The translations under genes were made by a program, and so were the position numbers. Below, one piece after another: positions 21,368-36,461 of a stretch of 64,000 nt of DNA (position 1 is its first letter; each line of letters begins with the position of its first letter). The notes below the pieces were generated by a model, which was given only the letters and a program-made list of their open reading frames with translations, did no database searches and was not told where the DNA came from. Source of the DNA: Corallococcus sp. NCRR (GTDB taxonomy: Bacteria; Myxococcota; Myxococcia; Myxococcales; Myxococcaceae); the NCBI RefSeq assembly GCF_026965535.1, contig NZ_CP114039.1, positions 4,278,001 through 4,342,000 on the forward strand. The letters run 5' to 3'.

Positions 21368-21377
21368 AGGTGAGACA

Positions 21378-21464
21378 GAACGGCCGGGACACACGCGGAA
21401 GTACGCTACCGTTGCTTCCTTCCGGACCTGGCGGGGTTCGCGCCCCCACGTTGTCCCGACCACA
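21378..21464 (-). ncRNA. ffs: Signal recognition particle RNA (small bacterial type)
   Basis: Read on the minus strand, the region contains the invariant SRP domain IV core CCAGGUCCGGAAGGAAGCA followed by ACGGUAG. The outer ends GUCGGGACA and UGUCCCGGC pair to close the hairpin, giving a 4.5S-like RNA of about 85-90 nt. It binds Ffh and targets nascent membrane proteins. Exact ends are estimated from the helix. It is the last RNA of the serS/tRNA cluster, about 30 bases after tRNA-Ser(GGA). Confidence 0.92.
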
Positions 21465-21494
21465 AAATCCGTGCTGCGACTTCGAAAATAACAA

Positions 21495-21581
21495 CGGAGA
21501 GGGTGGGATTCGAACCCACGATACCCTTTCAGATATACACGCGTTCCAGGCGTGCGCCTTCAACCGCTCGGCCACCTCTCC
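21495..21581 (-). tRNA. tRNA-Ser (anticodon GGA)
   Basis: The 87-nt sequence folds as a class II tRNA. The acceptor GGAGAGG pairs with CCTCTCC, with discriminator G. The D-arm is GCCGAGCGGTTGAAGGC, the anticodon stem CACGC/GCGTG carries loop CTGGAAC, there is a long variable arm, and the T-arm is GTGGGTTCGAATCCCAC. Anticodon GGA reads UCU and UCC. CCA is not encoded. It lies 13 bases after tRNA-Ser(CGA). Confidence 0.97.
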
Positions 21582-21594
21582 AGAGACTTTGGAG

Positions 21595-21681
21595 CGGAGA
21601 GCGTAGGATTCGAACCTACGGTACCGTTGCCGGTACGCCTGATTTCGAGTCAGGTGCCTTCGACCACTCGGCCAGCTCTCC
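21595..21681 (-). tRNA. tRNA-Ser (anticodon CGA)
   Basis: This is an 87-nt class II tRNA. The acceptor GGAGAGC pairs with GCTCTCC, discriminator G. The anticodon stem CCTGA/TCAGG holds loop CTCGAAA, so the anticodon is CGA, reading UCG. A long variable arm and the T-arm GTAGGTTCGAATCCTAC are clear. It begins only seven bases after the tadA stop codon, so it is very probably cut out of the tadA transcript. Confidence 0.97.
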
Positions 21682-21688
21682 AGAATAT

Positions 21689-22156
21689 TCAGTTTTCGCG
21701 TCGCTTCGCGCGCAAGCGCTCGAAGAACGTCTTGAGAAGCTGGCGACTGTCGTCCGCCAGGATGCCACTTGTTACTTGGAGCCGGTGGTTGTGCCGGGGC
21801 TCTTCCACCAGGTTGTACAGCGAGCCGACCGCACCCGCTTTCGGGTCCATTGTACCAAAGACGAGTCGGGTGACACGAGACTGAACCAGCGCACCGGCGC
21901 ACATGGCACACGGTTCCAGCGTCACGTAGAGGGTCACCCCGGAGAGTCGCCACGCATCGCGAGCTTTCGCTGCGGCTGCCAGCGCGAGCATCTCAGCATG
22001 AGCAAAGGGGTTTCGGTCGCATTCACGGCGGTTGTAGCCCGTGCCCACGACGTTTCCGTCCAGCACCGCTACCGCACCCACCGGAACTTCACCGAGTGAA
22101 GCCGCTTCCCGCGCGAGCTCTAAAGCCTGCTGCATGAAAGCGATGTCGTCACTCAT
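21689..22156 (-). CDS. tadA: tRNA-specific adenosine deaminase TadA
   Basis: TadA converts A34 of tRNA-Arg(ACG) to inosine so that it can read CGU, CGC and CGA. The 155-residue protein has the zinc deaminase signature: HAE near residue 54, with Glu56 as proton shuttle, and PCAMC near 83-87 supplying two Cys zinc ligands. The start ATG lies 27 bases after the end of a tRNA-Arg(ACG) gene, the enzyme's usual sole bacterial substrate. The stop lies seven bases before tRNA-Ser(CGA). The gene is thus embedded within a tRNA array on the same strand. Confidence 0.96.
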   Translation of the reverse strand: MSDDIAFMQQALELAREAASLGEVPVGAVAVLDGNVVGTGYNRRECDRNPFAHAEMLALAAAAKARDAWRLSGVTLYVTLEPCAMCAGALVQSRVTRLVFGTMDPKAGAVGSLYNLVEEPRHNHRLQVTSGILADDSRQLLKTFFERLRAKRREN

Positions 22157-22183
22157 GAGACGTGCGCGCCAAAGAAGAAGTGG

Positions 22184-22257
22184 CGCTCCCTGGAGGATTC
22201 GAACCTCCGGCCTTCGGATTCGTAGTCCGACGCTCTATCCAGCTGAGCTAAGGGAGC
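22184..22257 (-). tRNA. tRNA-Arg (anticodon ACG)
   Basis: This is a 74-nt class I tRNA. The acceptor GCTCCCT pairs with AGGGAGC, discriminator G. The D-arm is AGCTCAGCTGGATAGAGC, anticodon stem TCGGA/TCCGA holds loop CTACGAA, and the T-arm is GGAGGTTCGAATCCTCC. Anticodon ACG is the substrate of TadA, whose gene starts 27 bases downstream. CCA is not encoded. Confidence 0.97.
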
Positions 22258-22289
22258 ATTTCTTCCGGCTGCTGCTTTACATCAAGTGG

Positions 22290-22376
22290 CGGAGAGAGAG
22301 GGATTCGAACCCTCGATACCCTTTCGAGTATGCAGGTTTAGCAAACCTGTGCCTTCAGCCTCTCGGCCATCTCTCC
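22290..22376 (-). tRNA. tRNA-Ser (anticodon GCU)
   Basis: This is an 87-nt class II tRNA. The acceptor GGAGAGA pairs with TCTCTCC, discriminator G. The anticodon stem CAGGT/ACCTG has loop TTGCTAA, giving anticodon GCT, which reads AGC and AGU. The long variable arm and the T-arm GAGGGTTCGAATCCCTC are present. It lies between tRNA-Ser(UGA) and tRNA-Arg(ACG). Confidence 0.97.
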
Positions 22377-22418
22377 AACTCTTCTCTGTCAAAGAACCAC
22401 GAAACTCAAGCTCAAAAT

Positions 22419-22505
22419 CGGAGGCGGTAGGATTCGAACCTACGGAAGGCTTTCACCTTCTGCGGTTTTCAAGACCGCTGCCTTCAACCGCTCGGCCACG
22501 CCTCC
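22419..22505 (-). tRNA. tRNA-Ser (anticodon UGA)
   Basis: This is an 87-nt class II tRNA. The acceptor GGAGGCG pairs with CGCCTCC, discriminator G. The anticodon stem GCGGT/ACCGC holds loop CTTGAAA, so the anticodon is TGA, reading UCA and UCG. The variable arm and the T-arm GTAGGTTCGAATCCTAC are clear. It is the first tRNA after serS, 126 bases past the serS stop. Confidence 0.97.
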
Positions 22506-34696: not shown

Positions 34697-35655
34697 GCGC
34701 TTCCACGGAAGAGAAGGACGCCGTCACGGACAAGCGCCCGGCCGTCGTCGTCACCGGCATCAGCGGCAACCTGGGCCGCACGCTGGCGAAGATGCTGCAC
34801 AAGCGCGAGCGCATCATCGGCATCGACCGGCGTCCCTTCATCGGGAAGCCGAAGGACGTCGAGATGCACCAGTTGGACCTGCGCAAGAAGAAGGCGGAGG
34901 ACGTCTTCCGCAAGAACGAGGTCCGCGCTGTCATCCACATGGGCATCATGCATGACCCGCGGATGAGCGAGGAGGAGCACCACTCGTTCAACGTCGTGGG
35001 GACCACGCGCCTGTTGGAGTACTGCGCGAAGTACGGCGTGAAGAAGGTGGTGGTGCTGTCCTCGGCGAACGTCTACGGCCCCAGCCCGGACAACTCCAAC
35101 TTCCTCACGGAGGACGCGCCGCTGATGGCCGCGAGCCGCTTCTCCGGCGTGCGCGACCTCATCGAAGTGGACATGCTGGCGCACAGCTTCTTCTGGAAGC
35201 ACCCCGACATCGAGACGGTCATCCTGCGGCCCGTCCACATCGTCGGGCCCACCATCAAGAACGCGCCGTCCAACTACCTGCGGCTGCGCCACCCGTGGAC
35301 CATGGCGGGCTTCGACCCCATGGTGCAGCTCATCCACGTGGAGGACGTCGCCCGCGCCATGGTGGAGGCCCTGCGCCCGGAGCCCAAGGGCGTCTACAAC
35401 GTCGTGGGCCCCGGCCAGGTGCCCCTGTCCGCCGTGCTGCGCGAGCTGGGCCACACCGCGATCCCCGTGCCGCACCCCGTGGCCCGGCCCCTGTTGGGCC
35501 TGATGTTCCGCTACCGGCTGGCCAACTTCCCGCCGCCGGAGCTGGACCACATCCAGTTCCTCTGCGCCGTGGACGGCAACCGCTGGGTCCAGGACGTGGG
35601 CTGGAAGGCCCGGCACTCCATGCGCGACACCATCCGCTCCGTCATCGGGGAGTAG
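34693..35655 (+). CDS. Extended SDR / NAD-dependent epimerase-like protein
   Basis: The 320-residue protein starts at a GTG overlapping the acyltransferase stop. The Rossmann motif TGISGNLG lies near residue 21 and the LSSANVYGPS strand near 118. Where active extended SDRs have Tyr-x3-Lys, this sequence reads F-S-G-V-R, so the catalytic Tyr and Lys appear to be replaced by Phe and Arg. It may bind nucleotide without classic dehydrogenase or epimerase chemistry. The downstream region holds a predicted sRNA unit on the same strand but with its own promoter. Confidence 0.87.
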   Translation: MSASTEEKDAVTDKRPAVVVTGISGNLGRTLAKMLHKRERIIGIDRRPFIGKPKDVEMHQLDLRKKKAEDVFRKNEVRAVIHMGIMHDPRMSEEEHHSFNVVGTTRLLEYCAKYGVKKVVVLSSANVYGPSPDNSNFLTEDAPLMAASRFSGVRDLIEVDMLAHSFFWKHPDIETVILRPVHIVGPTIKNAPSNYLRLRHPWTMAGFDPMVQLIHVEDVARAMVEALRPEPKGVYNVVGPGQVPLSAVLRELGHTAIPVPHPVARPLLGLMFRYRLANFPPPELDHIQFLCAVDGNRWVQDVGWKARHSMRDTIRSVIGE

Positions 35656-35694
35656 CGGGGGCGCGGCGGCTTTCCGTGGGCCCCCGCGACAGTT

Positions 35695-35714
35695 CCCTGA
35701 CAGTCATGTCAGGG
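35695..35714. promoter_or_regulatory. Dyad 1: CCTGACA-N4-TGTCAGG
   Basis: A perfect inverted repeat (8-bp arms CCCTGACA / TGTCAGGG, spacer GTCA) is centred about 166 bases before the predicted RNA start. It has the same arms and spacer length as dyad 2. Two matching dyads upstream of a sigma-54 promoter are the usual layout of enhancer-binding-protein sites. No T-run follows, so it is not a convincing terminator for the SDR gene. Confidence 0.6.
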
Positions 35715-35740
35715 GGAACATGGCGGGATGGCAGGGAGGG

Positions 35741-35758
35741 CCTGACATCACTGTCAGG
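35741..35758. promoter_or_regulatory. Dyad 2: CCTGACA-N4-TGTCAGG
   Basis: This second perfect 7-bp-arm dyad (spacer TCAC) is centred 45 bp from dyad 1 and about 121 bases before the predicted RNA start. The arms are identical to dyad 1 while spacer and flanks differ, which points to a protein-binding site. Confidence 0.6.
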
Positions 35759-35843
35759 CATGGGACGGTGGCGACGGGGAGTGAGTGTTGCCAAGTGCCT
35801 GATTTTACATGGGAAGCAGGGGTGGGGCAGGGGGGCGCGGCGG

Positions 35844-35860
35844 TTGGCACTCGCATTGCT
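35844..35860 (+). promoter_or_regulatory. Sigma-54 promoter (-24/-12)
   Basis: TTGGCAC and TTGCT are separated by five bases, so the invariant GG and GC are exactly ten bases apart, matching the consensus TTGGCACG-N4-TTGCW except for one position. Counting from the -12 C at 35859 gives a start at G35871. No protein-coding gene begins downstream on this strand within range. Confidence 0.7.
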
Positions 35861-35870
35861 CTAGAGACCA

Positions 35871-35997
35871 GGCAACACGGCGGGGTCGCAGCGGGCCGGA
35901 AGTACCGCGCGACATCGTCACCCTGGTAGGGGGTTCCATGGGGGAACCCTCGACGCCCATCGTCTCGGCCGGCCCCGAGACGGTGGGCGACTTTTTT
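35871..35997 (+). ncRNA. Predicted ~126-nt small RNA driven by sigma-54
   Basis: The RNA would begin at G35871 and end in the T-run at 35992-35997. Three stem-loops are visible: SL1 at 35885-35913 (GTCGC-A-GCGG against CCGC-GCGAC), SL2 at 35931-35949 (GGGTTCC against GGAACCC), and SL3, the terminator. It lies in the 347-bp gap between two convergent gene ends, has its own promoter and upstream dyads, and contains no credible reading frame. Myxococcus has a precedent, the sigma-54-dependent developmental RNA Pxr. Whether this is that RNA or another cannot be told here. Confidence 0.55.
35955..35997 (+). terminator. Rho-independent terminator of the predicted sRNA
   Basis: A 14-bp stem (GCCCATCGTCTCGG / CCGAGACGGTGGGC, with one G-U pair) closes a CCGGCC loop. 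Three bases later comes a run of six T. This is one of the clearest intrinsic terminators in the window and is oriented with the sigma-54 promoter. Confidence 0.8.
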
Positions 35998-36002
35998 GCG
36001 GG

Positions 36003-36461
36003 CTACGGTGACGGCAGCGCCTCTTTGGGCGGTGTCTCCCGTGGCTCCAGCTCGCCCGCGAAGGGACCCGACAGCTGCTTCTCCAGCAGCCAGACGCCGT
36101 CGCGGAAGACGAACTCCGAGGTGACGCTGTCGTTCTGCTCGGTGGCGGAGGGCAGGCGCATCCACTGGATGCGGCTCTGGACGGTGGCGTGGCGGCCATC
36201 GTCGGCGAGCTTCACGCCCTCGATTTCATAGTCGGTGACGGTGAGGTCGCGGTCGTCGTGGAGCTCGCGGCGCTTGCGTTCGAAGTCCTTGCGCTCCTCG
36301 GGGACGATGAAGTTGGACAGGACGCGATAGTTCCTCCAGCGCAGGTTCTTGTGGAAGCCCTCGACGACGGGTTGGAGCGCTTCCAGGTCCGACTTGGGCG
36401 GGGTGTGGGCACAGGCCCCACCGAGGACCAGGGCGACCATCAGGGCAGGCAGGCGGTTCAT
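36003..36461 (-). CDS. Small exported conserved protein, probable lipoprotein
   Basis: The protein is 152 residues. The N-terminus is a signal peptide ending GGACAH; the Cys is preceded by Gly-Gly-Ala, an imperfect lipobox, so lipidation is likely but not certain. The mature part is small and charged, with an alpha/beta pattern like NTF2-type folds (LQPVVEGFHKNLRWRNYR, then strands DYEIEGVKLADDGRHATV and SEFVFRDGVWLLEKQ). No function can be assigned. It diverges from the TPR membrane protein at 36554 and its stop is six bases after the sRNA terminator on the opposite strand. Confidence 0.8.
   Translation of the reverse strand: MNRLPALMVALVLGGACAHTPPKSDLEALQPVVEGFHKNLRWRNYRVLSNFIVPEERKDFERKRRELHDDRDLTVTDYEIEGVKLADDGRHATVQSRIQWMRLPSATEQNDSVTSEFVFRDGVWLLEKQLSGPFAGELEPRETPPKEALPSP

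Follow-up and report, generated by a model that had tools for sequence, protein, structure and literature searches.

A predicted RNA unit between convergent genes

The window, by which we mean the whole 64,000-nucleotide stretch analysed (G000:C1:4278001-4342000), belongs to a genome of 9,787,125 bp in a single contig. Two dyads, a sigma-54 promoter and a predicted small RNA lie there between an epimerase gene and a lipoprotein-like gene (Table 1). The initial annotation had described this gap as convergent and as holding one unit of enhancer-like sites, promoter, structured RNA and terminator, and that description stands: the flanking frames do converge, both dyads are exact and share identical 7-bp arms, the GG-N10-GC spacing of the promoter is correct, the RNA (~126 nt in that account) folds into three hairpins, and the unit is conserved in relatives. 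Its terminator was described correctly as to the six T but not as to the stem, given as 14 bp. No activator gene adjoins the predicted RNA within the window. Elsewhere in the window, Rfam places a small SRP RNA and five tRNA genes in a cluster on the minus strand (21374-22505).

Table 1. Features of the predicted unit and its flanks (window positions)
Feature	Position	Strand	Basis or remark
NAD-dependent epimerase/dehydratase gene (PF01370)	34714..35655	+	upstream synteny marker; start codon approximate
Distal dyad CCTGACA-GTCA-TGTCAGG	35696..35713	.	presumed site for an enhancer-binding protein; TGACA at -147, counted from the first base of the promoter
Proximal dyad CCTGACA-TCAC-TGTCAGG	35741..35758	.	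presumed enhancer-binding-protein site; TGACA at -102
Sigma-54 promoter TGGCACTCGCATTGCT (TGGCAC-N5-TTGCT; GG-N10-GC)	35845..35860	+	pattern match and conservation
Predicted small RNA, ~127 nt	35871..35997	+	start inferred from promoter spacing; fold; homologues
5' hairpin, long RNA form only	35879..35919	+	fold
Hairpin 1, 9-bp covarying stem, conserved AUNGG pentaloop	35929..35951	+	fold, alignment
Hairpin 2, terminator stem of 15 bp, CCGGCC hexaloop	35954..35989	+	fold, alignment
Terminator T-run, six T	35991..35996	+	sequence
Lipoprotein-like gene, convergent	36003..36461	-	no Pfam match; stop codon 6 nt past the RNA's T-run

The dyads are the only matches to CCTGACA-N4-TGTCAGG in the window at up to two mismatches, and five of 100 shuffles gave as many. 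Their core, TGACA-N4-TGTCA, occurs at seven places in the 9.79-Mb genome, two of them at this locus, and its reversed control at none. The promoter is the only exact match to TGGCAC-N5-TTGCT in the window. Genome-wide, exact TGGCAC-N5-TTGC has 8 matches and its reversed control 14; the promoter pattern is not rare by itself, so its weight rests on conservation. A promoter was found in all 30 homologous loci first read. Among 60 loci from 58 genomes, 50 have TGGCA/TTGC as an exact best match, and in 58 the best match has at most one mismatch; the other two are L131, where the pattern missed a readable promoter, and L207, with two mismatches.

Dyads were counted in the 53 loci with at least 200 nt of upstream sequence. 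TGACA-N4-TGTC is perfect in 37 of these; at least one dyad with no more than one mismatch is present in 47 and at least two in 22, and none lies within one mismatch in six (the G035, G048 and G054 loci, L205, L207 and L211). All 10 loci of genus g1 with enough upstream sequence have dyads at about -147 and -102. For many relatives the distal dyad lies between -146 and -148; in genus g24 (Myxococcus) it is found at -156/-157, and single-site loci have theirs at -89 to -126. The initial annotation had staked its case on conservation of promoter, stems and dyads in close relatives, and all three are conserved there. In three reduced genomes of 2.1-2.7 Mb (G035, G048 and G054; L122-L124), the RNA and a one-mismatch promoter are kept and TTGCA-type repeats replace the TGACA dyads, as though the site of the activator were now a different one.

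For the 127-nt RNA, the predicted fold has an energy of -70.3 kcal/mol (z = -4.2 against dinucleotide shuffles, none of 200 being as stable). A gapless alignment of 53 cores from 49 loci (84 columns; the cutting anchor was present in 49 of 49 loci) has two-sided changes in 12 of 24 base pairs, and 95.8% of the cells at these pairs are paired, against 37.8-60.5% in slid controls. Further pair types numbered 23, no better than in shuffles (mean 23.7; 415 of 500 reached that count). Two pairs are frequently unpaired, columns 15-31 in 15 of 45 and columns 46-63 in 22 of 45.

The loops are nearly invariant. A covariance model, R1, was built from the 84-nt RNA core and gave 81 matches in 46 loci, a list from which some tandem copies are missing: 48 full sense matches, 32 antisense matches to hairpin 2 and one weak extra (L203). 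When the 48 full sense matches were folded, the hairpin 1 loop was AUNGG in 47 and AUUGU in the remaining one, and the hairpin 2 loop was CCGGCC in all 48. The third position of AUNGG varies among U, G, A and C. In 67 distinct cores, a set cut by patterns for both loops and thus partly circular for loop counts, the pair closing AUNGG is C-G in 60, A-U in four and G-C in three. A small-ORF reading of the core was rejected, the ATG in CCATGGGGG being absent as ATG in 44 of these 67 cores. The 5' leader is the least conserved part of the RNA in both length and sequence. A long form with the extra 5' hairpin occurs at the window locus, in Myxococcus and in others, and a short form of ~76-89 nt occurs at loci (L020, L021, L023, L024, L027, L028, L030 and L031 included) that have too little sequence for that hairpin. 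RNA lengths are more variable in f3.

With a -24/-12 promoter, putative upstream activator-type sites and a structured RNA that ends in an intrinsic terminator, the unit has the make-up of a sigma-54-dependent small RNA gene. The RNA appears to belong to a new, predicted family of this kind. Our literature search, which covered titles and the openings of abstracts, found no paper naming this RNA; the M. xanthus ncRNA survey of Whitworth and Swain (2020), cited in excerpts of PMC8538405 and PMC7694542, lay beyond that search and may list the bare transcript. Because tens of M. xanthus ncRNAs have been reported from RNA-seq (excerpts of PMC8538405) and one study put its sRNAs aside (excerpts of PMC9548883), the transcript may sit undescribed in a table.

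Distribution and tandem modules in the Myxococcaceae

R1 matches 95 of 96 family genomes, the sole miss being G102, which is 79% complete; among genomes of 90% completeness or more and no more than 5% contamination it matches 83 of 83. Across 147 genomes of the class, 102 were matched: the family, G058 (f2), five f3 genomes and G081. We rejected the G081 match as chance, since it is partial, scores 28.4 bits and has no promoter or dyad that we could see. When the 311-bp unit was used as a BLAST query, 57 of 98 relatives gave a match, including 56 of 58 family genomes, and the two that it missed (G021 and G042) are matched by the covariance model. One BLAST match, in G087 (L141), spans only 22 nt and was set aside as chance. 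The RNA is present, with two modules, in the Myxococcus xanthus AM003 record. A search of viral contigs with one hairpin 2 pattern gave no match. The record BNCN01000011.1 (L260), titled Comamonas sp. KCTC 72670, carries this myxobacterial RNA locus with three modules and is probably misnamed.

Within the available stretches, many of which are cut by contig ends, an epimerase or a lipoprotein-like gene lies near 48 of 49 family loci (epimerase 38, lipoprotein-like 47), the exception being L122 of G035. At the f2 locus (L202) the epimerase is still upstream of the RNA and there is no lipoprotein match; all six f3 loci are without either neighbour. Four of the f3 loci (L203, L204, L206 and L208) combine a perfect dyad with a promoter that has at most one mismatch. 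G023 carries a second, diverged copy of the RNA at another locus (L217/L212, G023:C6:375217-375300), with its own dyad and sigma-54 promoter and with no lipoprotein match. In f3 loci L206-L208, the RNA is preceded by a gene for a long protein that by eye has FHA-like and GAF-like parts and a cyclase-looking domain, and that gives a weak tblastn match to the FHA-GAF activator described below.

In Myxococcus the RNA core is repeated. R1 finds two to four whole tandem modules in all 27 g24 genomes, and by its coordinates the step between modules is 71 nt throughout in 24 of them; G109, G122 and G125 each have one step of 70 nt. Sixteen arrays, some from the same genome, were checked base by base and all their steps are 71 nt. 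In the inner copies hairpin 2 is kept and the T-run is broken or weakened, an argument for a function of hairpin 2 beyond termination. The arrays offer a natural dose series, and the two-loop module of ~71 nt is a small, testable object with which to look for RNA-binding proteins in bacteria without Hfq.

A putative envelope-linked regulon and the proposed action of the RNA

The dyad also stands before other sigma-54 promoters. In 92 family genomes, TGACA-N4-TGTC followed after 50-80 nt by TGGCA-N6-TTGC has 42 matches, which come from 32 genomes, and its reversed control has none; the main promoter of the RNA itself has a different spacing. We read 30 of the 42 loci and classed the downstream proteins by eye. 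By this classification, 24 of the 30 precede genes for exported, lipoprotein-like or membrane proteins: 14 for an exported-protein family whose leader ends in ATS or similar (VATS, IATS, LATS, AASS), three for an MMATS group, two for lipoprotein-like, two for polytopic membrane and two for Cys-rich, exported-looking proteins, and one for a beta-barrel-like protein. One further locus is the second RNA copy in G023, and five were not assigned. Pfam gave no match for either of the two such proteins that were tried, one of them partial. In the window's own genome, the one genome examined for this gene, lpxC (PF03331) has a TGGCAT-N5-TTGC promoter and a one-mismatch site at -164.

These N-termini, judged by eye, suggest that the genes sharing the dyad form an envelope regulon, and the dyad and promoter motif that accompanies the RNA would mark co-regulated genes. 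A developmental role, which the initial annotation had raised, is not supported; the dyad-sharing genes point to the envelope. Within the window's own genome, the same dyad (up to one mismatch) stands with a sigma-54 promoter at L121 (8783246), L056 (577553), L057 (1509720) and L043 (4992898); the genes that follow encode two exported proteins related to each other and a beta-barrel-like protein, and one is lpxC. Loci L243-L246 of genus g5 have dyad and sigma-54 promoters with no clear following gene, and the product of these promoters may be a very small protein or a further RNA.

Which protein would bind the dyads? An activator that regulates itself through them was looked for and rejected: in 4.5-kb stretches around the 50 strongest of 56 PF00158 matches, no dyad within one mismatch stands before a sigma-54 promoter within one mismatch. 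In G040 (L242), a dyad and sigma-54 promoter lie directly behind an activator gene and before a lipoprotein-like gene. The closest homologue of this activator in the window's genome, L070 (G000:C1:7305791), is 64% identical and has GAF, sigma-54 activation and Fis domains and an FHA-like N-terminus (a Yop-YscD_cpl match below cut-off). Behind L070, too, comes the equivalent lipoprotein-like gene, with no such promoter. L070 is thus a candidate activator only, with perhaps a modest chance of being the right one.

Homology, covariation, conservation of loops, promoter and dyads, the shared motif and the distinctness from Pxr are shown by computation. On balance, we favour the view that the RNA is a trans-acting sRNA, the noncoding arm of an envelope-linked regulon under an unlinked enhancer-binding protein, whose loops capture a protein. 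Transcription, the activator, the envelope role and protein capture are what we infer in this account. An enhancer-binding protein encoded elsewhere would bind both dyads and contact sigma-54 polymerase at the promoter, and an RNA of ~127 nt would start there and stop at its own terminator; the remainder of the regulon would be mostly exported or envelope proteins. The working parts would be the two hairpins, which show AUNGG and CCGGCC loops on covarying stems, and their likeliest action would be to capture an RNA-binding protein, as a decoy in the way that GlmY captures RapZ. In Myxococcus, the repeated module would raise the dose. The conserved loops on variable stems, the constant spacing, the changing leader and the repetition of the whole module are together consistent with a protein that recognises the loops and is titrated. 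We suggest, as a tentative extension, a family-wide sigma-54 decoy RNA in bacteria that lack Hfq: a two-hairpin module with nearly invariant loops, its strength set in evolution by one to four repeats (70-71 nt), could titrate an RNA-binding protein or an RNA partner and thereby link the envelope regulon of an unlinked activator to post-transcriptional control.

The conservation of the loops fits base pairing too. It is possible, if doubtful, that AUNGG and CCGGCC form kissing contacts with target mRNAs and so cover or uncover their translation starts. sigma-E sRNAs act on outer-membrane protein mRNAs by base pairing at translation starts, and the loops of antisense RNAs have a U-turn that the U-N-R within AUNGG resembles. 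Conserved loops on varying stems would suit such pairing, and M. xanthus, which has no hfq according to excerpts of PMC5684412, may favour structured loop contacts. However, the third loop position varies, and the 5' leader, the usual seed, is the part that is conserved least. Pairing of loop CCAUNGGGG with CCCCNAUGG at start codons is a weak proposal, because the closing pairs differ in f2/f3 and the loop base is variable. Of the two, protein capture seems somewhat likelier than loop pairing.

It is improbable that the RNA is a mere terminator or antisense tail of the convergent lipoprotein-like gene with no role in trans. Here, as in several relatives, only a few nucleotides separate the T-run from the stop codon of the lipoprotein-like gene, and 47 of 49 family loci have that gene in the stretch available. 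But the T-run is on the RNA's own strand, the lipoprotein match is missing at the f2 locus, the six f3 loci and the second G023 locus, promoter and dyads are conserved, and the inner tandem copies keep hairpin 2 despite their weakened T-run.

Pxr and other sigma-54 or decoy RNAs

Pxr is a well-studied developmental RNA that blocks fruiting-body development in rich medium. Its gene lies 3' of the NtrC-like regulator gene pxrR, 262 nt away in M. xanthus (excerpts of PMC5684412 and PMC5568312). In the window's genome, searches with primer letters and C-run patterns did not find pxr, and one lead (L066) proved false; the true gene, at 3.282 Mb, was found by reading the sequence 3' of 50 of the 56 PF00158 matches. 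It occupies G000:C1:3281918-3282064 (L079, L142), 1.03 Mb from the window RNA, has the 7-C loop and matches Rfam RF01812 at 109.9 bits (gathering score 80). Its promoter, about 200 nt 3' of an NtrC-type activator gene, reads TGGCATGGCACCTGC and departs from TTGC. BLAST finds pxr in 49 of 98 relatives, all among the 58 family genomes. Five genomes of genera g8 and g12 (G022, G043, G051, G026 and G044) have four or five pxr copies close together.

The window RNA matches no Rfam family at threshold. At 35680-36020, RF01812 is absent up to E = 5, and the best match, ncS035, has 17.6 bits against a threshold of 79. When R1 was run on 13 of 30 fetched pxr loci, its best match scored 15.7 bits and lay outside the pxr RNA, and one match of 9.6 bits (E = 1.5) overlapped a tandem pxr copy.

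Could the RNA act against Pxr? Hairpin 1 carries GGGGGAACC, which could pair with GGUUCCCCC of the Pxr SL1 loop, a nine-nucleotide complementarity in the window species, and the ranges of the two RNAs overlap by BLAST. We consider such antagonism very unlikely: 267 of 500 shuffles have a duplex energy as low, so the complementarity is no better than chance, the Pxr loop does not vary in the 26 loci compared while the facing arm changes in relatives, leaving GGGGA:UCCCC, and six f2/f3 genomes have the RNA but no BLAST match to pxr. That the RNA is the local Pxr, as the initial annotation allowed, or a Pxr paralogue controlling fruiting-body development is hardly credible, and as Pxr itself it is refuted: the shared traits of sigma-54 control, three hairpins, wide family range and tandem copies in some genera are set against a pxr gene elsewhere with other neighbours and another promoter region, only weak R1 matches in the pxr loci, differing dyads, and a comparison by covariance and synteny, proposed earlier, that yielded no RF01812 match and an epimerase upstream instead of a pxrR-type regulator.

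The RNA resembles Pxr in its design. Pxr (RF01812) also has a sigma-54 promoter with an upstream region, three hairpins and a length of ~110-127 nt, is widespread in Myxococcaceae and has tandem copies in some genera; both sRNAs are amplified in tandem, in different genera. Unlike Pxr, the window RNA lies at another locus, has another sequence and no 7-C loop, has no adjacent cognate response regulator, has TGACA dyads, which we did not notice by eye at pxr, and reaches f2 and f3. In the literature searched, Pxr is the sole functionally studied myxobacterial sigma-54 sRNA, and the predicted RNA would be the second. It is at least as widespread as pxr by BLAST (56 against 49 of the 58 family genomes, with queries of different length).

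CrcZ/CrcY of Pseudomonas and Azotobacter and Qrr of Vibrio are sigma-54-driven sRNAs as well, CrcZ/CrcY being decoys of Hfq-Crc. Theirs are Hfq-dependent designs, unlike the one proposed here, and we know of no structure that they have in common with the window RNA. The CsrB/RsmZ decoys have repeated hairpins that carry a fixed loop motif on variable stems, as in the new family. Their loops are ANGGA, whereas those of the window RNA are AUNGG and CCGGCC, and their promoters are not of the sigma-54 and dyad kind.

By analogy, the nearest working parallel is GlmY of E. coli, whose sequence was compared with the window RNA via the Rfam scan alone. GlmY is a sigma-54 sRNA that acts as a decoy through RapZ, and its activator system QseE/QseF (GlrK/GlrR) also drives rpoE (excerpts of PMC6075780 and PMC7073468). 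The two differ in their sites, TGT-N12-ACA for QseF (excerpts of PMC6075780) and TGACA-N4-TGTCA here, with the arms in opposite order (ACA before TGT), and in that glmY adjoins qseEGF, whereas the window RNA has no adjoining activator gene. What the two would share is control by sigma-54 and by an enhancer-binding protein that has envelope genes among its other targets, rpoE in the case of GlmY.
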